Shown here piece by piece: positions 1,457 to 64,000 of a stretch of DNA of 64,000 bases. Both the position numbers and the translations under genes were made by a program. The notes under the pieces were generated by a model. It had not been told where the DNA came from. It saw only the letters and a program-made list of their open reading frames with translations, and did no database searches. The stretch is from Physcia stellaris. Taxonomy: Eukaryota > Ascomycota > Lecanoromycetes > Caliciales > Physciaceae. The stretch is taken from contig JABSSW010000066.1 of assembly GCA_018902385.1 (NCBI GenBank), forward strand, positions 154,718-218,717, read 5' to 3'. The first letter of the stretch is position 1; the number at the start of each line of letters is the position of its first letter.

Positions 1457-3079
1457 ATGGCCTCAAACCTACTGTCTGAGGTATGTCGACAAAGTTACGG
1501 GAGTATTATGGCTGGGAAGGTCGCAATGAGGACAGTTGGCCATGATGATGAATTAACCCAGCGTGGCGCAAACCCAAGGACGGGACTAGTAACGCCTTTC
1601 GTTACGACCGATGGTAGTAAAGCAAGTGCAGGACATGACTATGTAGCCGCCAAAACCCCGCATGCAAAGCGCAGACATCGAAGTCATGGTCGTTGGAAGC
1701 AAGATGATACAGGCTGGAGCTTCACCGACAGTGCTCTCCCAAGTCCGATCGTGCAAAGCGCGGAGAACTCTTGCTCTGCGGCATCGACCAAAGGCCTGCA
1801 AGACAAGTTTGTGGTGGACATGCCTGGAGTGGATAATCCTGAGCCTCCACAAATGTCGATAAAGCAGATCCTGGAATACCAAGAAAGTATACAAGGCAGC
1901 CTTGGAAAGAATGGAAGGGATAGAGAAGTACAAACAGCAACTGATCCAACGACGGATCCACCACAGTCTATCAGAAGAAAAGAGATCGGCACTGGCGCAA
2001 ATTCTGCTAGAGATACTCATACAACCACTCGATCGAGGCCTAACGATAAGAAAGGACTACATGCTCACATCCTCGATGAGAACAATCAGCAGTCTTCAAC
2101 GCCACCGGGTCTGCCGCTGCGACTCAGTCAATATCTCCCAAGAATTGACCTACTTCATCCTTCCCACTTTGCTGATCTCCCATCCTCGTACAGACGACCT
2201 TCGAATCTACTACCAGGACGCCTCCGTCGACCTAACATGAAGCCGGACATCTCCGTGGGATTTGACACTTCGCCACCCCGGCCCCAGGTGCAGCGTCAGG
2301 ATGGAGCTATGATAGTGCCTAGAGTCCGCTGGGATCCACGTGAAGGTGAGACAGGAAATAAGAACCATCAGCCTCACCCAAGCAAATTTAGACCATCAGC
2401 GGAATCGTCAGGAGAGAAGTCTGCCACAGAGCTTGAGGTAGTACGCGAGAAGCTCAGGCCATCTCAAATGTGCAAGTGTTCCAGGTGTCAGGATGCACAT
2501 GCTGTGAGCAGAGCGCCAACGCCTATCCTGCGCGCAACAAGCGGCAATGTCACGGGAGACCCGGCTTCAAACACCAAAAAATACCATAGGGATGATGAGG
2601 GTGTCAGCGCAGGGGATACGAAAGAGACGGGTCCAGGAAAGATGAAGAAGACTCCATCGACCTCAGATCAATCAGGCCCAAAGTCACCAAACGAGCTTTC
2701 CACAGGCCGGACAATGGACCTCACCCGTTCCAAGTCATTCGTAAGGCGCGTCGAAAGGGTCACAGAGCTGCTGGACTTGGCGTCATTACCTGATCTCAAA
2801 TGGCTCAAAAATCACATGGTGGATGCGGCGCAAGAGGTGATACTTACCTTTTGCTACACTCCGTCGGCATTGCGCGTTTTAAGGGGAGGCAACGTCCTCT
2901 CTGAGACGGGTGTGGAAGCAGTCAAAACGGTGCTCCTCGCTGCTGTGTATTTTCTCGTACTGCTCAAGATCGCCATTACGCTGGCGAGGGTAGTAAGATT
3001 GATCCTGAGTATTCTGGTGGTGATTAGCTGGCCGGCGAAGATTTTCGCAACGGTGGTTAGATGGTGCCTGATAGGCTGA
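1457..3079 (+). CDS. Uncharacterised protein with C-terminal membrane segments
   Basis: This is an uninterrupted frame of 540 residues that I do not recognise. The first ~430 residues are polar and look disordered, rich in Ser, Pro, Arg and Lys. They include one Cys cluster (MCKCSRCQDAH, near residue 338) that could bind a metal. The last ~110 residues are ordered: an amphipathic stretch (LASLPDLKWLKNHMVDAAQE) is followed by two strongly hydrophobic segments near residues 490-535. This suggests a tail-anchored or two-pass membrane protein with a long cytosolic N-terminus. A possible 39-bp in-frame intron (GTATGT at 1481, AG at 1519) would remove 13 residues near the N-terminus. The gene converges on NUR1 across 199 bp. 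Coding status is well supported by ORF length; function is unknown. Confidence 0.6.
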   Translation: MASNLLSEVCRQSYGSIMAGKVAMRTVGHDDELTQRGANPRTGLVTPFVTTDGSKASAGHDYVAAKTPHAKRRHRSHGRWKQDDTGWSFTDSALPSPIVQSAENSCSAASTKGLQDKFVVDMPGVDNPEPPQMSIKQILEYQESIQGSLGKNGRDREVQTATDPTTDPPQSIRRKEIGTGANSARDTHTTTRSRPNDKKGLHAHILDENNQQSSTPPGLPLRLSQYLPRIDLLHPSHFADLPSSYRRPSNLLPGRLRRPNMKPDISVGFDTSPPRPQVQRQDGAMIVPRVRWDPREGETGNKNHQPHPSKFRPSAESSGEKSATELEVVREKLRPSQMCKCSRCQDAHAVSRAPTPILRATSGNVTGDPASNTKKYHRDDEGVSAGDTKETGPGKMKKTPSTSDQSGPKSPNELSTGRTMDLTRSKSFVRRVERVTELLDLASLPDLKWLKNHMVDAAQEVILTFCYTPSALRVLRGGNVLSETGVEAVKTVLLAAVYFLVLLKIAITLARVVRLILSILVVISWPAKIFATVVRWCLIG

Positions 3080-3278
3080 TGTCAGTGTTCCAGTGACTTG
3101 TGGAGACTTACGACTTGTGGAGAATTCGTATCTGCCTTTTATCATTGGGTGTGACTCCAGGAAATGGTTAGCTAATCATGGAGATTCGCAGGTATAATGC
3201 TTTTCCTGTTGATGGTCCAGTTAAATGATTCTATGCAAACGCCCGCCGGGTATCTCTATCGCTTATGATCGTACATCC

Positions 3279-47203: not shown

Positions 47204-49627
47204 TTATACAGCGTCGTCACTCTCCACACTATGATACATTCCTCCTTCTCCATCCTGCCTCGCCCTACGTCGCTTCATCCTTGGAGGTGTCTCATACATC
47301 CTAGTGTAATTAACTACCTCGCCACCCAGCATTGCTGCTCCAGTCTCTCTTCTGCCAAAGTACGGGGCTGGATCGCACCAAAAGTCTCTACAATTCGTCA
47401 CGATGCCTCGCGAGAAAGGGTTCCCTCGTCTTCGTGATCCTGCGTTTCCTTGAGCCGTGGCTACGAACGTATCGAGGCCCAAGAGCTTCTTCCATTGCGC
47501 GAAAAATCCTTCCTTTCGTCGCGAGTGTGGCCTGTGGCCTGGTACTACAGGGTTCGGCCCCACGCCCGTATCTGTTAGCTGAGCACCGCTCATACTAGTG
47601 GATCCAGAGGTCATCATGGAGGTGACAGCCTCTGACGCCGGCGAGACATGATGCACGTTTCCTCTCATGCTCTCATATGTAGTGACAGCTCTCGCGATCT
47701 GTATGAGTTGAACAGTCAGGAGCATGGTCACCCACAGAAGTTGTAAGCCGGACCAGATAGCGAGAACTACGGTAAAAGTGTCTCGGAGGGCGATGCCACA
47801 AAGATCCTCCGGGAGCACATTGCACTGCCTCTCAGTGGGCAGCGGAAGGATTACAAGATCTAAACAGTTAGCAAGAGTATTGATATCTAGCGATAATCTC
47901 AATTCACTTACGCTTCCAAGTCAAGAACAAGAAAAATGATATCCCAGCCTCCAATGTGATAACGTACAAAAAGAAATGTCGGTGGTTGTTGGCGCCCACA
48001 CAATTATGTACCCATGGACAATGACTGAGATATGTTAGCAAAAAGTAGAGATTTTTTGATTACCCCTTACTGATCGTGCTTCGCGACGCAACGAGTACAC
48101 CTCTTGCAATGTTTTGCGCGCAAAGGCATTCTGACCATGCAGTGTACGCAAAAATTCTGCTCGTCATACTTCCATAATGCCAGTAGTTCGTCAACACTGG
48201 CTTTTTGTTGACTGCGGCTGGCAGGCTTAGGCACAAATCCCGGATCCTCAACCATGCTGATCGTGTAAAAATATGCACAAAGAGCGTACAGAATCGTGAA
48301 AATAATATTGGAGAAGGAATAATTTTTATATGTGTCTAAGACTAGTCAGCAGATAGAATCTCGACGGTATGTTCGAATCACTCACTGGGAAGGATATGCG
48401 TGAGCCATCGTACACCCACCCAGAATAATGTCGCCGCGAAAACGCCCGCTAGATATGGCTATTAACTCGTCAAATTCACTCCAAAGCTTGCCACTTATGG
48501 TAAACTAACTGTTCTTTGTATGTGCTTCATGTCCGTGGGCGCCCATTGTAGCACTTGCTGGGCACAGTATTGAAGAGCACACGCAAGAAAAATAGCAATA
48601 GGCACCGCTGCATAAATCACCATCCGGCTAAGGATGGAGAAAACCATGATGAGAAGCACAAACGGGCAAAGAAAGAAGAACCTGTTGAGGAAGCCGCGTG
48701 ACTTGATGTATGACATGCCAGGTAATGGCAATTGCTTGGGATTTCCGTCGGGCGCGAAACCACACTCTTTCAGTGCACGATGCCAAGGTCCCGTAGAATT
48801 CATCTCCTCCGCAGTGATTGCCGGTGTCTTGTGAGTATTCGTTTCTGCGAAACGGTCACAGCCATACTCGATCAGCTTCTGTATGCAGGCGGCGTTTCCT
48901 TTGACCAAGGCCCAATGTAGGGCAGTGAAGCCATCCTGGTCTACACTGCTAACGTTGGCTCCCCAGCGCAAGAAGAGATCAACAACAGCCGGAAACCCTT
49001 TGTATGCAGCCCACATGAGGCAGGTATGCCCTTGAGGGTCAGGCGCATCGAGAGGTACGTTCTCCTGTAACAGAAGGATCAAGAGGAAGACGTTGCCATC
49101 GAACGTCGCCAGATGAAGGATGTTGTAACCTTGGGCATCGGTGATTGAGGGATCGGCGCCATGTTGTAGAAACAGATTGACGACGTAGTAGTGACATCGC
49201 TGAGCTGCCCACATCGCAGGTGTTGCAGAGGATTCTCCACCTTTTATATTGACTTCTGCCCCCTCTCGAGCAAGTACTTGCATAAGGCGTAGTGATTATT
49301 GATCGCAGCCCACTACAGGCCAAACCTTGTCAGCTTCTGCGTAGAGTGTCCGAGGTATGGCTTTCATACGTGCAAAGGCGTTATGCCTTCCTCGTCCTTG
49401 TGGGTGATAGCATATCTGCCGTCGTCCAAGAGCTTTTGTATTGGACCAAGTTCACCGAGCATCGCCAGCTGCATGAGATCTTCATGGAGTGGCAATTTGA
49501 TATCATTGTCTGCCGACTGTATCCGATCAAGCTCCACATCGTTTGCTTCGCTTGCCTCGTTTCCCCTTCCGTTCGGCGACGTAGTTGCAGAAGGGGCTCG
49601 ATGGCCCAAGGCTGGCTGTGAACTCAT
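47204..49627 (-). CDS. AKR1: Ankyrin-repeat palmitoyltransferase Akr1 (DHHC), apparently frameshifted
   Basis: Golgi/endosomal S-acyltransferase with cytosolic ankyrin repeats. Exons: 49627-49370, 49312-48510, 48458-48386, 48335-48071, 48024-47912 and 47859-47204; about 722 residues. Six ankyrin repeats (for example [20 protein letters not shown], and [20 protein letters not shown]) precede TM segments. The DHHC-CRD reads [20 protein letters not shown], then [17 protein letters not shown] with catalytic Cys in DHHC, the last His and Cys completed by splicing. C-terminus has further TM segments and a tail. In exon 2, [13 protein letters not shown] and [14 protein letters not shown] are in different frames: the GGGGG run (plus strand 49259-49263) seems one G short. 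A 22-nt GT-AG gap there is too short for an intron. All other junctions are in frame. Confidence 0.87.
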
Positions 49628-50563
49628 CGCTCACGATGCTGGTGGATTGCGCGCAGCAGGCGCTTCATGGCCACAAAGCGCCACATGTCATATCAGGTAT
49701 GACATTCGAGCTGTTTTGGATCAAACAGAGCAGTTTTTGGAACATCGAGAATTGAATCTTCTTTTCTCGCTATTGACAGTCTTCGCTTATACGTGATTCA
49801 TGATGCAGATCAAACGATCGTCGTCAATTTCAAATCGACATCGCGTGTGCGTATTCGATTTCGTCTGATGATTCACGCTCGAACGAGTTTGATTTCGCGA
49901 ACGATTTTTTCTCGTTCGCGATTTGTGAACTGACATTCGAAACGATGATAAAATATTTTGAAAAAAATTTGTGAATTGAAATTCGAAACGATGATACGTA
50001 AAATATTTTGAAAAAACAAAATAAAAAATCAATCGTTCATCGAGACGTCGCGATCGTTGCTTTGAACAAAAAACGAAAACGAACAAATCTCGTTCACACA
50101 AATTGAGATTGATTTTCACGTTTTCGTTTCAAAACGTTCTTTCGCGATGATTTTTGAAAATGAATGAAACGATTCGATGACTTTTTCAATTCATGCGACG
50201 TAAATCAAATGATAACATTCAATTTCGAAAATGAATCGATGAATGAATGACGAAATCAATCGCGATGTGTGTTGTTGTGTTGTTGTGAATTTTTTTTTGC
50301 GTTCGAATTTAAAAACGTCGAAAATCTCTAAACGAATTTTTTTTCTTTGTAATTTTTTGTTTCAGATTTCGCATCGTTCAACAAATTTTCGTATACAACG
50401 TATTAAACAGCGATCAACGCACTTTTCAGTTTCATTTTTTTGAAAATGTCAAAAAACGTTTTGAATGTGATTTTCGCGATTGATAAACGTTTTCGCGAAA
50501 AATTCGAGAAATGATCAAAATTTGATCTTTGACAATCTTTGTATGTTTTGAAAAATTAGTGAT

Positions 50564-50756
50564 TGTCAAGGGCCGTGCCTGGGTCAATAGGTAGCAGAAA
50601 CGAGAATATTTGATCTAGAGAGCAAATATGTACATGGAGGTCGAATGCCAGAAATAGATTGTGGGCGTCAAGTTCTAGATCGCGCTAGTCCCCATAAGAA
50701 CTCCCGCTGATAAGATAAGGCTCTACCGAAGTTCCTTTCAAGGCATGCTCGTAACA
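50564..50756. repeat. Left LTR (less mutated copy)
   Basis: 193 bp, TG..CA ends. Aligns without gaps to the right LTR with 25 differences; at 20 of them this copy keeps C or G where the other has T or A. Confidence 0.88.
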
Positions 50757-51654
50757 CTATCCCCTCCTTTCCTTCAAGCTTCGTTCCGAAGCGACTATCC
50801 CTTTCTCCTGATCGGTCGGCATTGCGAAGGGATTCATTGGCTGTGGCCCAGGTACCAGCCTGGCCATGATTGGAGCAGAAAGGTCCAAAGCAGATGCGGC
50901 AGGCGTGGAGAGATAAATGCGGAAACAGGAGATGCAGAGCGAAGGCAGAGGATATATGCGAAGCGGCCGAGAATGAGGACCTTGTTGAGGACCTTGAACC
51001 GCGGAGATACCTGCAGATTAGTATGGTGAAACGGCCGATGTCTCAGGGCAAAGCAGAAGCAGAAGCAGCAGGGCGGTATCGGTTCCGCAGGCGTGTGCTG
51101 TTCCAAACTCCTCGGATTTGAGCTTTTCGAGTCCTTATTAATCGACGCGTCCTGATTGGCTGCAGGCTTTGAGGGTATCCAGGCGTGGAGCAGGGTATTG
51201 GCGCATCGACGGCTGGCAAGGGGCTGCGGAGAAGGCGGGCTTGTGTGACTGAGTAGCAGGCCCAATTGACCGGTGTTCTCCTTCTATCCATGCCATTGCT
51301 CCCGTATCGTGTGTAATAAGTCCACCTCTTTCTAGAATCGTAGAGGTGTAAAGAATTGAACGCATGCGCTTTTTGGGCCATTGTAGCGGCCTCACTGAGG
51401 CCGATGCGGGCTCGTTCGTAAGATGCCATTGAAGCAGGATCACTAGCCGTTGTAGCGGACTCACTGGGTGCCGTTGAAGCAGGCAGGTCGCTGGGGCAGG
51501 GGCGGAGCGGAGCGGAACCCAAAAATTTTTTTGTTTGGTGTTTTGGGTGTTGGTTTGTTTGTTAGAGGTAGGTGGTTTGATGTATGTGTGTGGCTTCTAT
51601 CCCCCTCTTTATCAAGCGGTGTCCCAACGCTTCAAGGAGGTGAGTATTGTAGAG

Positions 51655-51800
51655 GCCGTTTGATGGGTGGGCTGACTGGCTCGGGGAAGCATGGAGGTCG
51701 TCTATTGACTGAATGTCGACTGGTCTCGACGAACAAGGAGGTCGACTATTGACTGGATGCCGAAGGCTCGAAGAAGGAGGTCGGCAATTGACTGTCATTC
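51655..51800. repeat. Three imperfect GGAGGTCG..ATTGACTG units
   Basis: GGAGGTCG followed by a short spacer and ATTGACTG occurs near 51691, 51738 and 51777, spaced about 40-47 bp, between longer similar stretches. Part of the element's interior; no coding frame. Confidence 0.6.
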
Positions 51801-51884
51801 TCGCAGACTCACGGCCATTCTCGCTGGCCCACGATGCGCATAGTGGAAGTGAGGTGCAACCACCGCCTCCAAAGGGAGGACTTA

Positions 51885-52080
51885 ACTGGCGGTTTTCTTT
51901 TGACTCGCGTACCCCTACGAGTGGTCCGGCGGTTTTCTTTTAAATACTCGCGTACCCCTACGAGCGGTGGAGGCTTTGTTTTAACTCGCTCCTCCTACGA
52001 GCAACTGGCGGTTTTCTTTAATCTCGCGTACCCCTACGAGACTGGCGGTCTTATTTAACTACTCGCGTACCCCGACGAGC
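51885..52080. repeat. Five tandem ~38-bp units inside the LTR element
   Basis: Units start near 51888, 51928, 51968, 52006 and 52044. Each has a GGCGGTTTTCTTT-like part followed by ACTCGCGTACCCCTACGAG-like part; the latter has CTCG and CGAG at its ends and can form a small hairpin. Unit 3 is the most diverged. A related word, TCTCGCTAACCCTGTACGAG, stands alone at about 52118. Confidence 0.75.
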
Positions 52081-52302
52081 AACCCACAACAGCAGGATTT
52101 GGCCGGGTAACAGTTAGTCTCGCTAACCCTGTACGAGAGATCGCTGTGCTGTAGGCAATGAACCACCGTCACTGCTGATTGAGAAAATTGCGCTGGAGAC
52201 GTCACCGTCGCAAATTGACCGATCTTGTTTCTTTCTACTCGCTGGCCGTTTGATAGCGAGTGTGGAATTTACATCGCCCGTCACGATGGAGATCAAATAT
52301 TA

Positions 52303-52495
52303 TGTCAAGAATCGTGCCTGGGTCAATAAATAGCAGAAACGAGAATATTTGATCTAGAAAGCAAATATGTACATGAAGATCGAATGTCAGAAGTAGATTG
52401 TGGACGTCAAGCTCTAGATCGCGTTAGTTTCCATAAGGATTTTCGCTGATAAGATAAGGTTCTATCGAAGCTTCTCTCAAGACATGCTCGTAACA
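52303..52495. repeat. Right LTR (more mutated copy)
   Basis: 193 bp, same ends and length as the left LTR. Carries 20 of the 25 C-to-T or G-to-A changes, all at CpC or CpT dinucleotides on one strand or the other. The G-to-A changes lie mainly in the first third, the C-to-T changes in the rest. Confidence 0.88.
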
Positions 52496-55400
52496 GTGAT
52501 ATACGCAGTCAATTTTCAAATATTCATATAATGTGAAATTTCAAACGTGATTTTGAAAAAAAAATTTTGAATGTCAACGTTTTTGCATTGTGATCATGAC
52601 AACGTCGACGTCGTTCAACAAATTTTTATATTCATTATAATTTTGTTGATTGTGTACGAAATCATATTTGAATCGTTGATACGATCAAAATTTCGAAATT
52701 TCAATAAATTTGAAAAAAAAAATTAAATGTGTTTGAAATATTCGATGATTACACGACTTTTCAAATTTAATTCACATGATGTTGTTCAATTCAAATTTCA
52801 AAAATAAATCATGTGAAACAATATTCATCGTCACGTCGATTTGTTGTAAAAAATTCGAAATTTTCAATTAATTTTGTCAACAATGTACGATCAAGCACGT
52901 GAATCGATTATATCAACAAAATTTTGAATTTTCATTAAATTTTGTGTTGATGAAATTAATGATTTCGAAACGATTTTTTTTTGATCACAATTCATGAATG
53001 TCGAAAAATCAAATTGAAATGCGAATTTTACATGCACATGCACACGATTTGAAATCAATTTTTCATTGCTATCTAAATATTACGTTTGATAATGTCACAT
53101 TTTCGAAATCAAAATATTTCAATTGTCTTTTTAACTTTCTGTATTTATGATTTATTTTTTTTTTTTTGAACAAAACGACACGTCTTTTTGCGTGAAATAA
53201 TCGAAAACGTTGACAAAATTTTCATCATATTCGTTTTTAACACGATCGATATTTTTGACATTGATTTTCTTTTTGTACGTTGCGATTTTCTTTGTGATGT
53301 CGATTTGATTCATAAATTTTGTTTTTCGTGTTTTGAAATCAAAATTTTGATGATGAATTCAAAAATTTTCGTTGAAATTATATCGACTTCGTAATTGCAC
53401 GATTTGTTGCATTTGATCAATCAACAATGAACAAAACAAACGTTTATATGATTTATTTTTCAAATACGATATTGTTTTTTCATAGTTTTTCAAATTTGCG
53501 ATTGTTGTTTTTTTTCAAACAATTTGTTTCAATATTTCAAAAAAACGATCACGTTTTTGACGAAAATCACGATTGCGACGAAATTATTTCATTCGTCGAA
53601 CAATCGATTGAAATTTTTCGAATACGTTTTGACGAAAAATGTCGATACATCGAATTGAACATATTGAATCGCTTTATGAAACATCGTGAACAACAACGAT
53701 TTTTTCGCGTTCGCATTTTTTTTGTTTTTTTTTCGAAAAATGTTTGTATTGTTTTGTTTCAATCGATTTCGTTTGAATGATGTGATTTGTGAATATATCA
53801 TTTGTTCATACATGTCGTTTCGCGCGTTTGTAACGAATTTTCGTGCAATTTGTTTCAAAACGTTTACGATCGAAACATTTGCATGAATGTGATGATGATA
53901 AATAAAATGAATATCGATGTTCGATTTCGAAATCGATGAAATTATGATTTTTCGCATCAATGAAATTGTCGAAATCATTTGATTTGTGAACAACGAAAAA
54001 ATATCGAAAATCGAATTCGCAAATAACGAAAAATTCGAACAATGCACATCGCGATCATCGATGACAAATTCAAATTCAACATCAACGAAAACGTCGAATT
54101 GTTGCAATTTGTATGTAAATAAATATTGATCAATCAAAAAAAAAAAATATGTATCGAATCAAATCGCGAAACGTTCGTTCATTTTTTTTTCTTTTTATAA
54201 AATTGTAAAGTATGTGAATTCAATTTTTTATTTTGATGATTTGATTTGAATTGCGCAAATTTCGTTCAAATTTGCAATCAATTTTTTTTTTTTTTTCGAT
54301 AAAATCGCAAATTTTGAAGTTCGCGATGTCGTTTGTTTGCGAACGTCTTTTTTGAACATGATGAATACGATTGACGAATTCGAATATCGATATGAACGTA
54401 AAAAAGTTTAATGAAATCAAATGAACGATATGTAAATAACAAAATGCAAAATCAGCGACACGAAACGAAAATTTTCGCGTTACAAACATTCAATGTTTTT
54501 TTTTGACACATCATTCAGTTTTTTGTGACATTTATATTTAGAATTCGTATAATCGTCTGTTTTGTTTTTGACGTCGTCTTTATTATCGTACGAATAATGT
54601 TACAAAACAACAAAATGTTCAATCAACGTTTCATCGACGAACAAATTGTTAAAATTGATCAAATCAAAAATATTTCGTCTTTTTTTCAAACGTGTTGCGT
54701 TGAATTCATTCGTTCATGAAACATTGTTTACATACATATTTTGACAAATTCTTTTCAAAATTCAAACAACAAATCATTATTTTTGATCGCAATTTTTTTG
54801 ATTTTTCAAAAATTTCGTCATCTTTCAATACAATACAGATTTCATTTGTGCGTTTATTTTTTGTTCGCGTCAAATGCATTTCGTCAAAAATCAACGCGTC
54901 GTCGTTCGATTTTGTGTTTTTTGAAAATTACAAATTGATTTACGACAAAAAACGATTGTTCAATTCAATTCATCGTTTTTCAATCAAAAATTCAATATGA
55001 AATCGATCATTTTCGCTCAATTGCGAATCATCATGAAAAAAATTACAAAAAATTCGATCATTGCACAGAAAACAAAATTCGATTTGATCGAATCAATCGA
55101 AAAAATGAAAATCGAAATAGTCGAAAAGAACGAAAACGAAAAAAAAAAATGAAAAAAAAAATGAAAAGCAAAACAACGAATCAAAACATCAATTTTCAAC
55201 GTTCAAAAAAAAAACACATGTGTTCAAAAAAATGCTACAGAAAATTTTTGAAAAAGTTCACGCTTTTTTTACATTGAAAAATTACAAAAAGTTTGTGATT
55301 GCTGTTCATTAAATCAACGTTACAATTAAAAATCATATAGTCAATGAAAGAAATTCGAAACGTTCGTTAAAAACAATTTTTTTCGAATTATTTGAAATGT

Positions 55401-57957
55401 TTCAAACAATTCGACGAAAAAACGTTCGAGTTGATCATGATTTGAATATACGTCGTTTGTGATAATTCGAACATGATTTGTATCGATACAAACAACGTTG
55501 AAAAAAAAAATTTCGATTTGATTTTACAAAATCGAACATACAATCACGCGTTGAAAATGCGTTTCGCGTGCAATTGACATTATAAATATCGACAAAAAAA
55601 ATATCGATACGTTTCGTCACGAGAAAAATGATTTTTGAAATGACAATTCGTCGTTGTTTTTAAACGTGTTTATTTACATAAAAAATTTACAAAAAAAAAA
55701 TATCGTCGTTGAATTTTTAAAATATCTTTTTTAATAATGTATGTTATTTACAAATTGCAACATCGAATCGACAAAATCGTTATCAACGCGCGCGTTATAA
55801 ACGAAAAAAATTTACAAAAAATGTAAAAATACAATCGACAACATCGTTCGATCGATGATTTACAACGACTCGATACAAATCATAATGAAAATCGATTTTA
55901 AATCGAAATCAAACAACGAATTATGTTGCAATTGATTTACGTCATGATTTTTTTGTGTTTATTGCGAATTGACAAAGTTTTGCGCATTGAATTTCATCAT
56001 ATTGAAATCGTAAACGAGAATTTCAATCATTTTTGCATCAAATTGATGTTGAAATTTCGAAAAATTTATCAAAATAAAAATAAACAAAACATTGATAACG
56101 AATTCGTCAACAATACAAAATTAACAATGTTTTAAACATCAAATTTTTTTATTTCTATGACAATAAAAACGAATTTTGATTGAATGTGTTTCATTTATTC
56201 GCAAAATGAATTGTTTTGTTCGATTTTGAATTTAACGACAAAATTTTTCGACGATTTGATGTTATGAATCGCGTTGTCACAATCAATGTTTTTTTATGAT
56301 ATTGAATTTGATATTTCAAATTGAATGAATTTCGTTAACGTTTTTATTACAAACATCTCAAATTTTTTTGAGTAATTTTCGCAATAATTTTGCTAATATC
56401 GATGTGAATTCGAATTTTTTCGAAACGCACTCTTTTCGCAAAGACGATGTTCAATATTTTTTGATTCAAAAACGTTGAAATATTCGCAAATTATGTGACT
56501 GAAACGACTGAAATATGAAATATGACAATGTGACAATTGTTAAATACATTATCAATTGAAATAATAAATTTATCAAAATGCGAGAAAATTTTTTTAATTT
56601 TGACGATCAAAAAAATACACGTTGCAACGCATGCGACAAAGAATGCGATTGCGCATAATTGTTGTTCACTTTTGTCGATATTTGAAATTAGCTATCGATT
56701 TCTACGAAAATTTTTTCGTAGTGATTTTTTCGAGTCATATTGAAAAAAACTTCAAAGACAAAATTTTGAATTAATAAACAAAATTCAAAATCGTCACGAA
56801 AAAAATGACAATATCGAGCAAAAACAAATTTCGAAATGTTAAACAATGATTTGTCGACGAGTGCAAATTTGATCAACGATAATTCGTTTCATTGACATAT
56901 ATATATATCTTTTAGAACATCAATTTTTCGTTAATCGTTCGATGTCTTTTCATGATCGTTTTGATTCAAAAATTTTCAAAATAAATCGTACGTTATTGCA
57001 TATTAAATATCGCAACTCGATTGAAACAATAAATATTGTGAAAAATGTTGTTTTGTCGTTGATATTGTCAATCGAAAAATGTTTAATCAATATTGAAATT
57101 CAAACGATTCATTGATTGAAATCGTTTTCGTGTAATATACGTTGCTGAAAATATATTTCAGTTAATTGTCGAAATTTCTACTATTCTTTCAGCATATATA
57201 CTCGTACGATAATTTCAATTTATTTGTAAAAAGCTGAAACGATCAGTCGAATTTAAAATGAAAATTCTTTAACGTTCAAAAAGATTGAAATTGAAAACGT
57301 GTTTACGAAAATTGTCGATTGAATCATTTTTTATTTTTCACATCATTTGAGCATCGTTTTTCATTATGAATCACATTATTGCATAACAAACAACTCGTTC
57401 AATGATTACGATTTGAACAACATAAAACTATTGCTTTAATGCAATACACAGCAGCAAAATCTGTCTTGTTCAAAATTCTGAATCAAAATTTTGACATCTG
57501 TTTGATATATGCATTTACGTCTAAAACAAAAACGAAAATCGTTGTTTTATTGACTTTTATTTTAATTTTTATTATTTTTTTTTCACAATGACATGAAGTA
57601 TGTCAATGCAATGTTTAATGAGTATTTTTTAATCTGTTAATATGTATTGATGCAAAGCGAATTTGTTTCTGAATGTTCAACGTTATGTGTTTTAAAATTA
57701 TAATCATTTTCGCGAGCGCATGATCGACTCATCAATGCAAAATTGAACGAAAAGAACAGTTATCACGATAATCGAAAAAGAACAAAATCAAAAATTGAGC
57801 GTGACGAACACAGAGCGACTATAAATAACTGATTATTGAATGTAAATGATGCGAAAACTGAAATATTTTAAAGCAGAACGTGAAGAATTGACTGAAACAA
57901 AACGTGAAAAATTGATTGTAAATATATTTTGATTGATGAAAATGTGAAAATATTTGA

Positions 57958-58740
57958 TAGTCGTCGCATAATGTTTATATATGCAAATAAAAAATCAATA
58001 TTTTAATGAAGCGAATCTGATTGAATGATTTAGCGATTAAAATTGTAAATAAACATTTTTCATTCAAAAGATCGCGAGTTCGAATCGTATAATGAGCAAA
58101 ATGCGTAAAAAATGATGAACAATTCGCTGAATTTCATGATTAAAAACGCGCTTTCTGATGCGAATGAAAATTTTCAAAATAATTGCATTGATAATTTGAA
58201 ATCATTGCTAACATGTGAAATATAACAGACAATAAACATTACTTTTTTGTTGTTGTGACAACGTCGAAAACTGATGCTGAACGCAAAACAGAGAAAAAAA
58301 ATGATTGAAACGTTGACGAGACAACGACGACTGCACAAAAAAATGACAAAACAAAATCGTGACGAGATGATGTATCAATGAAAAAAAAAGAAAATGTTGA
58401 AAACGTCGATCGAAAAAATAAAAACGATGTAATGATATTGACGAAACGAATGATAAAAAAAAAACGAAAACGAAAAAGAAAAAAATGAAAAAGACGAAAA
58501 AAGAACGAATCGAACAAATGTTTCGACAGATTTTTTGATTTGAATTGTAAAAGAAAAAAAAACGCAACAAATCGTAAAATTGCTAATGACTAGAAAGAAG
58601 AAATTGCAAAAAACGAAAAAAAAACGAATCGAACAAATGTTTCGACAAACTTCTTGATTTGAATTGTAAAAGAAAAAAAAACGCAACAAATCGTAAAATT
58701 GTTAATGATTAAAAAAAATCAATTTCATGTATTGATATGA
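57958..58740 (-). repeat. Dispersed AT-rich repeat, copy A (inverted)
   Basis: The reverse complement of this stretch matches copies B and C: shared words include TTATTTGCATATATAA, GTTTATTTACA, TGTCTGTTATATTTCACAT and ACATTGTCACAACAA-like sequence in the same order. Poly-pyrimidine sequence extends further on one side, as in B and C. Diverged by point mutation; no coding sequence. Confidence 0.65.
58501..58738. repeat. 119-bp tandem duplication within copy A
   Basis: Two nearly identical units; CGAACAAATGTTTCGACA recurs at 58511 and 58630, followed by TTGATTTGAATTGTAAAAG and GCAACAAATCGTAAAATTG. The differences between units are mostly transitions. A similar word, AAAGTTTG..GATACATTT, occurs twice in copy C, about 100 bp apart. 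Confidence 0.75.
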
Positions 58741-61700
58741 AAAATGATTTATTTCGTTGTCATCGAAAACATGATCGCACGATCACAATTGAACGTGTGT
58801 GAAATTTACGACGTGATGAAAATTCAAAAACGCGCTAAATCGTGTCAGAAATACGTTTTTGAAATTCAAAATTTCGAATTACAACTCATCGTCATGATGA
58901 AAAAAACATTGCAACAATGTAATGTAATGATTGCAAATTAAAAAAAAATAAATAAAAACGAAAAAGATTGCGAAAACGAATAATAAACTAAACGAATTTG
59001 CGAAATCAATTTTGTCGATTTCGCAATATCAACATCACGAAATCATGATCATGAATTTATATGAAATGAAAATATCAAAACAATTTCATCACGATTAATG
59101 CACAGTCGATATGACATATAACATCTATTTTTGAAAAAATTTATATTAGTGCTTTCGCACGAATTGAAAGACTGAACATCGAAATCTAAAAAACAAAATT
59201 ACATTAAATTAACATGAATAAAAATCAAACATAGCAAAATCATTTTAACATCATTGTTTTTATGAATACAACATGCAGAAAACATCGATTTGACAACGAT
59301 AAATATATTTTTTTTTCATAGATTGTTATAATGATTACACGTTGTCAATTTTCTGAACTCGAAACGATGTTTTTCAACAATACTATTTTAAATGTGCTAT
59401 TGTTTTTCTGTAATTCATAATGTAAATTGTCTTTGACTTTACATTATCGTGATTTTTAAAAATAAATGTTTTCGATCAAGAAAAAAGCAATGAAAATATG
59501 AACATTTTTTCGATGTTTAGATTATTTTTTAATATATTATACTCGTACGTTGACGAGAAATGATAATTAAAATTAAATAATCGTTGATTTTTTTGTTTGA
59601 TATTATGCAATTACGATGATATTGTTCATTTCATTGACAACGATGCTTTTGATAAATTGTTGTTGTTTCGACATGTGAATATTTTCGCGTCAACACATAT
59701 TCATCATTAACGTCGTTTGTAAAATCATTTTTGTCTACATGAATTTCAATTTTTTTTTCATTTTTTTTGTTGTTTAAATATCACGATCATCATCATCATG
59801 TCTCGTAACGCGAATCAGTTGATCATTTGTAAATGTATTATTGAATCGAAAATGAGTATGATTTTTGATATATGTTCAAACGTATTCGATGAAATTGTTA
59901 TCAACGTCAATATTTTCGTCGTAAATGAAAATGCGAAAAAATGCGCACACGTTGACTGATGTATGCGAAACTTCGTCAACGTCTATCAAAAAACGAGTTT
60001 TTTCAATTTATTGAAATTTACGACGATCATACAATCTTTTTGACGAGCGTCAATCGTTTCGTTTCGTTTCAAATCATTCATTCGAAACAATTGAAAGCTT
60101 TGATTATTCAAATAAATTTCGAATTTCAATGTTCATAACATTGTTGACGCAATTTCAAATCATCGATCGAAATGCTCGTTCGTTTTGCATTTATTGCGTC
60201 GTCACGAACAATTGTGTTTTTCGCGTTTGTCGTCAAATCAAAACGTAATTTGAGACATGCGACGAATGTTGATGAAAACACAAAACGTCGAAATGTTCGT
60301 TGAATATGTTTTTTTTTTTTCGTTTCATTCGAAACGAATGAAACGATTGTTGATTTATAATGTAAATTCGATGCGCGTAAAAGTTTGCGATCGCAAAAAT
60401 GATGTTTTCGATTTTTTTCAAAATTAAAAGTTTTTTTGTGTATGACAAAAACACGCGAACTCGTATCAATGCTGTAAAAACAACATTGTCGAGTTTCGAA
60501 ACGTGTTTTTCGCAACGACAATCAAATCGTCAAAAATTGTTTATCAATCAATTTACGACAAGTCGCGAACGATTGCAAAAAATCGATTTCAATGTCGACA
60601 AAAATGAATCATTATTTTTGTCTCAAAATGAAAACGAACTCATGAATATGAGCACAAAAATTCATTTTGAACACGACGACAATTTCGACGATTTCGAGTT
60701 TGACGATTTCGAAATCGAACGATTCGATTTTATCGAATTTCAAATCGTTGTTTTCGCATCAATTGAAAAAACAAAAATTTCGAATTTCTCGTTCTACAAA
60801 ACATTTACAATTTGAATTTCAAAATCGCGTCGCTTTCGCGTCGCAAAAAAAAAATTGTAAATGTGTTTTTAAAAAAAATTTGAAAAAATTCATTTTTTTG
60901 ATTTATAAAAAAAAAGTATCAAACGACGTTGAATGAAAACGAAAAAAAATACTGAAAATTGTGTTGACGAAAAAGAATCAAACAAAAAAAAATGTACGAA
61001 ACGTTGACGAAAACATCGTTTTCGAACATTCAAATGAGAAATATCGAATCAAACGACGAAAACGAAAAATAATGAAATGAAATTGTGATTTGAAATGAAA
61101 TTGAACACAATTGAATTTTTGTTTCGAGAATAATCATGTTGTGTGTCGATTTCATTGCATTTTTCGTTATATACGAAATTGCAAAAAAAAATTTTGCATT
61201 GTTGTTTGATTATGAATTTTTTTGAATTTTTTTGAAACAATCATGTTCTTTTCGCGATTGTAAAACATCATTTTGTAATTTATATCAAATTTTTTCAACA
61301 ATCAAACGATGCGAATGAAACGCGAAATTTGAAAAAATAAAATCGAACGTGTTGCGACGCAGAAAAAAATTTGACGTCGAACGTTGAATGTTTAAACATT
61401 ATTTCAATGATCATGTATTGAAAATTTTGTTATGAAAAACGATTTTATTGCAAACATCGTTATACACGATATTATGAAAAAATTGACATTATTCGCATCA
61501 AAACAAATTTGCATTGTATTTATTTTTCATTTTTAAATTTCGTTGATTCGTTTTTTTTTTTTATTTTGTTGTTTTTTACATTATTCGTACGAAAATGTTT
61601 TTTAATAAATGCAATTGATTAATGAACAGTCTTTTTGTATTTAATAAATTTGATGCTGTCAAACAATTATTCTTTATAAATTGTGATTTGATTTGATTTT

Positions 61701-62719
61701 GTTGATGTTAAAATGTTTTGATGATGTTTAATTTTTGTTTTGAATAAAAAAATGAATTTTTTTTTATTATTTTGATATTTGCAATTTGAAATGATACGAA
61801 AACAACAATTTATAAATATTTAAAACGAAATGCTGATAATTATAACAATTGATCAATAAATATGATAAAACAAATGTTTTCATTTTCTATGTTGTTTTTT
61901 CATTTCATATGTGAATTCATGATCATCATTTCGTGAAATTGTTATTGCGAAATCGATAAAATTTAATTTCGCATTTTCGTTTAATTTTTTGTTTTTTTCT
62001 TCTTGTTTATTTTTTACACGACATTTGATCTTTCATTTTCACGACGATAAGTTGTAATACGAAATTTTGAATTCTAGAAATGTTTTTTTGACACGATTCA
62101 ACGCGTTTCTATAATTTTCATCACGTCGTAAATCTCACGCACGTCAAAAATTAAAAAAAATTTTTATCGCGATGAAATGAATTCGTTCAACAAAACGAAA
62201 TCAATAATGACATCGAATTTCATCATCGACGACGTAATTAATAACTAATTCAAATTGTTTTTTTAATGAATTTTTTTTTTGCAATTTTTTTTCTTTTTAT
62301 CATTTCTTTCGCTCGTGCGTTTTTTCGTTTTTATTCTGTCACGATTTTTTTTTTTTTTTTTTTAATTTCGTTTATTTCGATCATTTTTTTATTGTCACGA
62401 TTTTTTTATTTTTTTTTTTCAATTTCGTTTAGACGATCACATTCAAACGATCATTTCGTTTTTATTCTGTCACGATTTTCATTTTTTTTTTTTTCTTTTT
62501 TTTCACGATTTCATTTTCTTCACGTCTATTCTTCATGATTTTTTTTTTTTTCGATTTTTTTTTCAATTTCGCGCAGACGATTACAATTCAAACGATTATT
62601 TCATTTTTATTCAATCATGATTTTTTTTTTTTTTTCACGATATTATCACATCGCTTTTATTTTGTCATGATTTTTTTTTTTGTCATTTTCAATCGTTGTT
62701 TCATCGCGTTCATCATTTT

Positions 62720-63110
62720 TCAATCAAGTCAATCGACAATCTTTTTCTCAATTTCGTATTCTGCGTAAAATATTCACGAGTTTTCAACATTGTCATCACA
62801 ACAACAAAAAAATGATGTTTGTTGTCTGTTATATTTCACATATTAGCATTGATTTCAAGTTAGTCAATTAGATGTCGAAGCGCGAATTCGATAATCAAAC
62901 ATTGTTATAACGTTTTCATTGAATTCAAAATTGTTATTGTTCGATTTTCTCAATTGTAGCATCAAATGTTCATCACACGAATCGAATTCGAACATTTTTT
63001 GAATGAAAATTTATCATTTACAGTTTAAATCGCAATTTTAATCACTAAATTAACAAGTCGATTTCATTTCGTTAAATCATTGATCATTTATTTGCATATA
63101 TAAACACGAT
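62720..63110 (+). repeat. Dispersed AT-rich repeat, copy B
   Basis: Contains TCAATTTCGTATTCTGCG, TTGTCTGTTATATTTCACAT and, near its end, TTGATCATTTATTTGCATAT. Copy C has the same order of words 690 bp further on. A long T-rich stretch (62266-62700) precedes it. Confidence 0.65.
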
Positions 63111-63419
63111 GCGTCATTCAAGAAATTCTACATGTTTTTTTCTTTTTCAACTTTTTTTTCATTCTTTTTTTTTTTTACAAAGTTTCAAAAGTTTGCTGAT
63201 ACATTTTTTTGATTTTTTTTTCTTTTTTTTTTTTTTTTTAGTTTATTCGTTTTTTTTCAATTTCTTTTTTTCAACAAAGCTCAAAAAGTTTGTCGATACA
63301 TTTTTTTTTCGATTTTTTCAATTCATTCGTCAATTTTTTTTTTTTTTTTCGATCAATACATCAATTTCATTATTATCGTGTAATTTTTGTTTCATATTCA
63401 ACATTGTTCAATCAAGCAT

Positions 63420-63830
63420 TCGTTCATTTTTTTTCTCAATTTCGAATTTTGCGCATCGAAATTCTGATTTTCAACATTGTCACAACAATCAGAAAAGTGA
63501 TGTTTTCTGTGATATTTCACTTGTTAATCGAAATTTCAAATTATCAATTCAATTATTTTGAGATTCTGTCATGTGCTCAGAAATGAATATTGTTTCATTG
63601 AGTCAAACTTGCTAGTTTCCGAAATTATCACAGAAATAAATTTTGAAAATAATCATCATTGCACACGCGACTCGAATTCGCAATGATGAATGAAACAATC
63701 ATGAATGAAAACTGTTTATTTACAGTTCATATCGTCAAATTAAACAATCAATTTCATTTCGTTAAAACATTGATCATTTATTTGCATATATAATCACGAA
63801 ACAACATTCAGAAATTTTTGCATTTGTGTC
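63420..63830 (+). repeat. Dispersed AT-rich repeat, copy C
   Basis: Direct copy of B: CTCAATTTCGAATTTTGCGC, TTTTCAACATTGTCACAACA, and TTTCATTTCGTTAAAACATT followed by GATCATTTATTTGCATATAT. It has a small perfect hairpin AACTGT/ACAGTT with GTTTATTTACAG. Preceded by a T-rich stretch like that of B. Confidence 0.65.
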
Positions 63831-64000
63831 AATCATCGTTTCACGAAAATCAACATTCAGCACTGAACATATTCATTTAATTCTATTTAGTCGTTTTATT
63901 TTATCGTCACATTCTCGCAGAGATAATGTTTATTTTTCAAATTTTGAATTTGTTTCGTCTGAATCATTTGAAATTTGCGTCTATCATAAAACATTAAAAA

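Follow-up and report, generated by a model that had tools for sequence, protein, structure and literature searches.

The analysed window is a stretch of 64,000 nucleotides of the Physcia stellaris genome (C66:154718-218717), and the genome searched for relatives of its repeats comprises 43.97 Mb in 147 contigs. Two nested repeats were found in its right-hand part (Table 1). The LTR element is inserted inside a larger mutated repeat, as the unmutated copy of this large repeat, found on contig C20, matches positions 50122-50559, resumes from position 52500 and does not carry the insert. The longest ATG-start open reading frame in the element interior of about 1.5 kb is 128 amino acids, and the element is therefore considered TRIM-like.

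Table 1. Features of the nested repeats in the window (window coordinates).
Feature	Position	Strand	Basis or remark
Left part of the large repeat, heavily mutated; left boundary of the domain depleted of CpC/CpT	49744..50558	.	Homology starts, CC+GG counts
Target-site duplication GTGAT, left	50559..50563	.	Sequence; C20 copy without insert
5' LTR	50564..50756	+	193 bp, TG...CA element ends; 5 of 25 C-to-T changes
Internal region of the 1.9-kb LTR element	50757..52302	+	TRIM-like; lightly mutated
3' LTR	52303..52495	+	193 bp; 20 of 25 C-to-T changes
Target-site duplication GTGAT, right	52496..52500	.	Sequence
Right part of the mutated large repeat	52501..64000	.	26.5% GC, one CC/GG; piecewise homologous to the unmutated copy in C20:451001-465817

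The two LTRs align without gaps and differ at 25 of 193 sites, by transitions only. Sorted by the next base on the mutated strand, twelve of these are CpC, nine are CpT and none is CpA or CpG, and at four further sites one LTR has CpC where the other has CpT. Given that 55 of the 95 available cytosines are CpC or CpT, the probability of 25 out of 25 is P = 5.6e-8. These counts agree with an earlier sequence-only reading of this DNA, which had reported 25 differences, all of them transitions, with every mutated cytosine placed before C or T. That reading had also held that hits on both strands argue against one-strand cDNA editing; both strands are indeed changed in the LTRs, and the window copy of the large repeat carries 776 and 599 changes on its two strands, so that strand-specific cDNA editing is ruled out.

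Loss of CpC/CpT in the interior of the window element is 0.07-0.17 by zone when the C42 element is taken as reference. In two of eleven elements, those of the window and of C9, the LTR zones show a higher loss (0.19/0.38 and 0.33/0.33) than the interior (0.02-0.17), as if mutation had entered from the flanks or followed LTR-LTR pairing, with both LTR zones of the C9 element possibly scored on one LTR copy. A repeat-linker-repeat effect on the LTRs is not claimed, as the zone counts hint at it in these two elements only and a single LTR copy may there have served for both LTR zones.

A DNA search with the LTR family gave 96 candidates; the 40 that were scored all proved to be matches, so that the family has at least 40, and 30 of them were taken up, yielding twelve complete pairs and six single LTRs that were excluded from the pair count. 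In the twelve pairs, 182 of 186 transitions are in CpC/CpT context (92 CpC, 66 CpT and 24 with CpC in one LTR and CpT in its partner), the remainder being one CpA, two CpG and one CpG/CpT; seventeen transversions were also found. The available cytosines number 301 CpC, 341 CpT, 279 CpA and 208 CpG, and the result has P = 1.8e-44 under random hits on them, a statistic that ignores linkage between hits. The C42 pair is nearly unmutated, with a single transition (CpG) and one transversion. An oddity of one LTR pair is ruled out, since the twelve pairs of the family agree.

The nearly unmutated C42 element also serves as a starting point for sixteen records of partly mutated copies of the element, in which losses are 1368/3547 (0.386) for CpC, 546/2849 (0.192) for CpT, 122/2702 (0.045) for CpA and 152/2690 (0.057) for CpG. 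The same comparison holds 846 transversions and 348 reverse changes, and the loss of CpA and CpG in these copies is therefore near general divergence, with CpA loss not above CpG loss. Counted from the window element, seventeen records give 1140/3003 for CpC, 614/3300 for CpT, 162/2974 for CpA and 147/2853 for CpG. The partly mutated copies thus show the order of preference before saturation. The C42 and C25 elements are hardly mutated despite being repeated. The stretch at C25:270443 (record L041) has an integrase-core match, two TGA stops, 43% GC and CC at 0.79 of expectation, and is perhaps a lightly mutated element.

The mutated domain extends from about position 49744 to the window end. 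Within positions 52496-64000 (26.5% GC), one CC and no GG were found in 11.5 kb, and CT, AG and CG stand at 0.28, 0.26 and 3.0 of expectation respectively. The AT-rich flank had been said to share the bias of the LTRs; it does, and the flank is itself a mutated repeat. Searches for homologues of the large repeat returned at least 58 and at least 125 matches, and twelve more matches to the right part are roughly 3 kb or longer, the C20 copy among them. Ten of the sixteen non-self matches to positions 48500-50563 start at 49744-49758, the others further right and none further left. The sum of CC and GG falls from 53 in positions 49247-49746 to zero in 49747-50246; position 49739 holds the last CC or GG before the repeat, and none follows until 50570, already within the nested element. 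Mutation therefore sets in no more than about 20 bp from where homology begins, which argues that it is repeat-directed; as in RIP, the repeat is targeted and its unique neighbour is spared, at the one edge examined.

The copy in C20:451001-465817 (records L052 and L055) has normal composition, with 48% GC over the length examined, although one 500-bp stretch of L055 falls to 35%. About a dozen mutated long copies were matched, and this one may have escaped as young or protected; more generally, the three hardly mutated sequences that are nonetheless repeated (the C20 copy and the LTR elements of C42 and C25) may be young, or targeting may be incomplete. An open frame of 764 amino acids with a MULE transposase domain (PF10551) lies at L055:71-2362, in or adjoining the unmutated copy; the mutated loci that were compared stop short of it. 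A Pfam search of seven open reading frames in the L052 part gave no match for five and only sub-threshold matches for two; the frame at 2752-3081 on the minus strand of L052, without a Pfam match, is presumably tyrosine recombinase-like, judging from a motif.

With the C20 copy as the starting sequence for the counts in every mutated record, the direction of change is known. Part 1 of the repeat was represented by eleven mutated records from ten loci (two C78 records overlap) and part 2 by eight, the window included; as the records of one repeat share ancestry, the counts are not independent. In part 1, 5622 of 5825 CpC (0.965) and 6494 of 7540 CpT (0.861) are lost, compared to 584 of 8604 CpA (0.068) and 124 of 7025 CpG (0.018), with per-record ranges of 0.93-0.99, 0.79-0.98, 0.03-0.21 and 0.007-0.047 respectively. 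Each record of part 1 has 5-18 reverse changes and 14-41 transversions over 3.4-7.2 kb aligned. Part 2 shows the same picture (CpC 4431/4557, CpT 4397/5076, CpA 393/5653 or 7.0%, CpG 92/4354 or 2.1%), with 5-23 reverse changes and 7-50 transversions per record. Expressed as Poisson intensities relative to CpG, the ratio CpC : CpT : CpA : CpG is about 170-190 : 95-110 : 3.4-3.9 : 1. An undirected comparison of the window with eleven records, the C20 copy included, gives 0.66 for CpT, 0.047 for CpA and 0.018 for CpG; its CpC cases come almost wholly from the C20 copy (421 of 425), because the mutated copies keep next to no CpC.

These directional counts rule out composition alone as the cause, and deamination of methylated CpG is likewise ruled out, as CpG, with a loss of 1.8%, is not the main target. 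The changes are C:G to T:A transitions on both strands, as in RIP, whereas they lack the preference for CpA that is characteristic of RIP (loss of 6.8% for CpA against 96.5% for CpC). The original observation is confirmed, and the effect is much larger than first stated. One qualification concerns its wording as a specificity for CpC and CpT and not for CpA: the dominance of CpC and CpT stands, and CpA turns out to be a minor target and not a null one (6.8% vs 1.8% for CpG in part 1; 7.0% vs 2.1% in part 2). CpA loss is highest where CpT loss is highest (0.21 in record L053 and 0.12 in L046), which would fit a graded preference of one activity. The rare CpA changes of the large repeat are more frequent at CCA and TCA (0.09) than at ACA and GCA (0.04-0.05), and at CAC and CAT (0.10-0.11) than at CAA and CAG (0.04).

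The base preceding the cytosine has no visible effect on CpC loss in saturated copies (0.96-0.97) and little on CpT loss (0.82-0.88). In the partly mutated copies of the LTR element, CpC loss is 0.43 after A or T and 0.35 after C or G, and CpT loss is 0.22 after A, 0.19 after C, 0.14 after G and 0.24 after T, so that the effect of the 5' base is at most about 1.2-fold for CpC and about 1.7-fold for CpT. The choice of cytosine is mainly governed by the 3' base, with a mild 5' effect that is masked in saturated copies. RID/DIM-2-class C5-methyltransferases read the 3' base, and AID/APOBEC-type deaminases mainly the 5' base. A DNA deaminase of the AID/APOBEC or toxin type, acting on single strands of repeats, would produce C-to-T changes only, would make methylation unnecessary and could be reconciled with the mild 5' effect in the partly mutated copies; since the 3' base decides here and both strands are hit, such an agent is weakened, and we regard it as very unlikely.

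A third repeat family agrees with the other two. In 3686 aligned bases of its copies on C80 and C31, CC and GG are absent from both, and the differing cytosines amount to 31 of 37 CpT, 74 of 828 CpA and 33 of 1004 CpG. All three repeat families agree on CpC/CpT targeting, with changes at CpC and CpT greatly exceeding those at CpA and CpG after correction for availability; the LTR pair first noticed is thus not exceptional, and the earlier reading of a cytosine-mutating process with this choice of dinucleotides is supported. A wider sample of 545 windows of 500 bp was drawn from 41 sources around these repeats and genes; it is non-random, some windows overlap and six fall outside the bins. Both CC and GG are absent from 203 of the 213 windows with less than 28% GC, whereas CA and TG together number 63 per window there and 67 in normal windows. 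If only cytosines before A or G survived, the C20 copy would reach a computed 25% GC, compared to 26.5% in the mutated block of the window.

An artefact of assembly, alignment or composition, or a chance LTR pair, was weighed against these results, as comparing mutated copies only with one another can give a false picture; CpT came first in the alignment counts of Neurospora Tad1 (PMC2621366) and of control fungal genomes (PMC7882544). With the direction of change fixed by an unmutated copy, few reverse changes and transversions per record, availability-corrected counts that agree in three families and the loss of CC and GG from nearly all low-GC windows, we consider such an artefact hardly credible.

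The common RIP indices do not register this pattern. Under the thresholds TpA/ApT >1.15 and (CpA+TpG)/(ApC+GpT) <=0.75 (PMC7882544), none of the 264 windows with less than 32% GC passes both, the only window of the sample that does having normal GC. The low-GC bins have mean values of 0.39-0.44 for TpA/ApT and 1.28-1.44 for the substrate index, and a survey based on a TpA index would call such DNA RIP-free.

A search of the genome with the PF00145 profile gave four stretches at three loci (C3, C5 and C6), so the RID/DIM-2-type genes that the sequence-only reading had proposed to look for are present, as two RID-like genes and one DIM-2-like gene. The C3 gene is one that we take to be DIM-2-like from its make-up (DUF7893, a C5-methylase domain and a sub-threshold BAH domain); in its best 120 hits every relative that bears a name is a lichen, the best being Heterodermia with 76%. 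The genes on C5 and C6 (C6:791557, record L031) are presumably RIDs, judging from relatives annotated as DmtA, with N. crassa RID lying outside the comparison, and are here called RID-A and RID-B; a RID-class methyltransferase gene, expected for RIP, is thus represented twice. The catalytic part of RID-A (309 amino acids) is 100% identical to the Physcia stellaris protein G7Y79_00005g016670. With predicted splice sites both genes read through, and the PPCQ and other motifs are kept.

In a tree of 49 rows (55 were offered and six, which have no start motif, were dropped; quick method, midpoint root), RID-A groups with the RIDs of other lichens, and RID-B, which has a long branch, is paired with Heterodermia within a 13-row group that includes Eurotiomycete RIDs. 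A 20-row tree adds further relatives of RID-B. Among the best 120 of 2824 hits of RID-B, most database proteins being nameless, the only named relative above 44% is Heterodermia aff. obscurata with 72%. RID-B, standing beside an ordinary lichen RID, may be an ancient paralogue or the product of a transfer. Its loop before the PDG motif has one extra residue, which is common to Cirrosporium, and two extra residues occur before IGNAVPP, where Tuber and Morchella are of like length. RID-B has a long branch, and the one close relative with a name in its top 120 hits likewise belongs to the Physciaceae; RID-B is therefore a candidate for the enzyme, a lead suggested by distribution and divergence. 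Anisogramma also has two RIDs, with CpA and CpT mutated (PMC10998396), and the possession of two RIDs is therefore not special to Physcia stellaris.

What was observed is a repeat-directed, two-strand C-to-T mutation governed mainly by the 3' base, in the order CpC > CpT >> CpA, CpG. We attribute it, with a probability of about 0.8, to RIP or a pathway derived from RIP in which the preference for CpA is inverted, with CpC above CpT, CpA targeted weakly in third place and CpG almost untouched. Repeats would be recognised by homology, and a C5-methyltransferase of the RID/DIM-2 class, proposed because this class reads the 3' base and deaminases mainly the 5' base, would act on cytosine in CpC and CpT. 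The product would become T, probably premeiotically. Sex occurs in Physcia stellaris, as its apothecia are abundant (PMC7513301). One of the two RIDs would be the likeliest enzyme, RID-B being a candidate, though RID-A or the DIM-2-like gene may be responsible instead. More tentatively, RIP may have been re-targeted in the Physciaceae, with the divergent RID-B as a CpC/CpT-specific RIP enzyme beside an ordinary RID and with TpA-based surveys blind to the outcome; we hold this extended version to be possible, though somewhat more likely wrong than right.

The main rival is a putative dense methylation of CpC and CpT in the repeats of vegetative heterochromatin, for instance by a DIM-2-like enzyme, followed by slow spontaneous deamination of 5-methylcytosine. 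A DIM-2-like gene is present, loss of Dim2 lowers repeat mutation in Zymoseptoria (PMC8016269), the LTR elements are mutated to very unequal degrees, as age would give, and in two of eleven elements the ends beside mutated flanks seem more mutated than the middle. The near saturation of CpC with so few transversions in the same alignments means, however, that C-to-T change ran tens of times above background, and the edge of the repeat is sharp; we therefore judge slow deamination improbable.

To our knowledge, it is not settled what sets the dinucleotide attacked by RIP. The inverted order, two unlike RIDs and an unmutated repeat copy together offer a direct way to test the choice of dinucleotide by swapping RIDs. 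A system of this kind escapes any index that relies on TpA and CpA, and statements that RIP is absent, or that a CpA preference is common to RIP-like defences (PMC12543289), deserve a context-free recheck. It follows from the genetic code that the stop codons created would differ as well: few would arise from CAA (to TAA) or CAG (to TAG), and TGG to TGA would be hit via the other strand.

The RIP of Neurospora crassa, exerted by RID with DIM-2, resembles the present case in its C-to-T changes on both strands of repeats and in the presence of RID- and DIM-2-like genes, whereas its order of CpA>CpT>CpG>CpC (PMC5496416) places last the dinucleotide that leads here (CpC>CpT>>CpA>CpG). Trichoderma reesei RIP is likewise repeat-directed and C-to-T, although CpA and CpG are about equal there, followed by CpT and lastly CpC (PMC5496416; the sign between CpG and CpT is missing from the accessible text). 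Signatures of CpA, CpT and CpG were reported across ten genomes, with CpT prevailing in one strain of Botrytis and in Magnaporthe (PMC4352252). As in Physcia stellaris, CpT is among the main targets in Botrytis, Sclerotinia, Magnaporthe and Anisogramma, whereas in the first three it goes with CpA, CpC being absent from the accessible text of PMC4352252, and in Anisogramma CpA and CpT are mutated (PMC10998396). In Monilinia, double changes of CpC to TpT occur beside CpA (PMC8959702).

Rhizoctonia solani and other basidiomycetes have a RIP-like C-to-T bias, and in one table for R. solani the changes are most closely spaced at CpC (214 bp), followed by CpG (370), CpA (422) and CpT (491); its authors, however, name a CpG bias and report that genes are affected as much as repeats (PMC4014442), whereas in Physcia stellaris CpG suffers least and only repeats are hit at the single edge examined. 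The genome paper of Physcia stellaris (46.57 Mb, 43.3% GC) does not use the terms repeat-induced or AT-rich in its accessible text (PMC7513301). The lichen RIP of Cladonia rangiformis shows two GC classes, sharp edges and homologues of RID and DIM-2, as here, but its mutated DNA peaks at 16% GC (PMC12542154). Loss of CpC and CpT alone stops near 25% GC when starting from 48%, and Cladonia would therefore have to lose more contexts; the accessible text of that paper contains none of the words dinucleotide, CpA, CpC and CpT. No fungus with RIP led by CpC and CpT is described in the mostly subscription-free literature on RIP context, RID and lichens that was accessible, and none of the compared systems, as far as their accessible texts describe them, spares both CpA and CpG.
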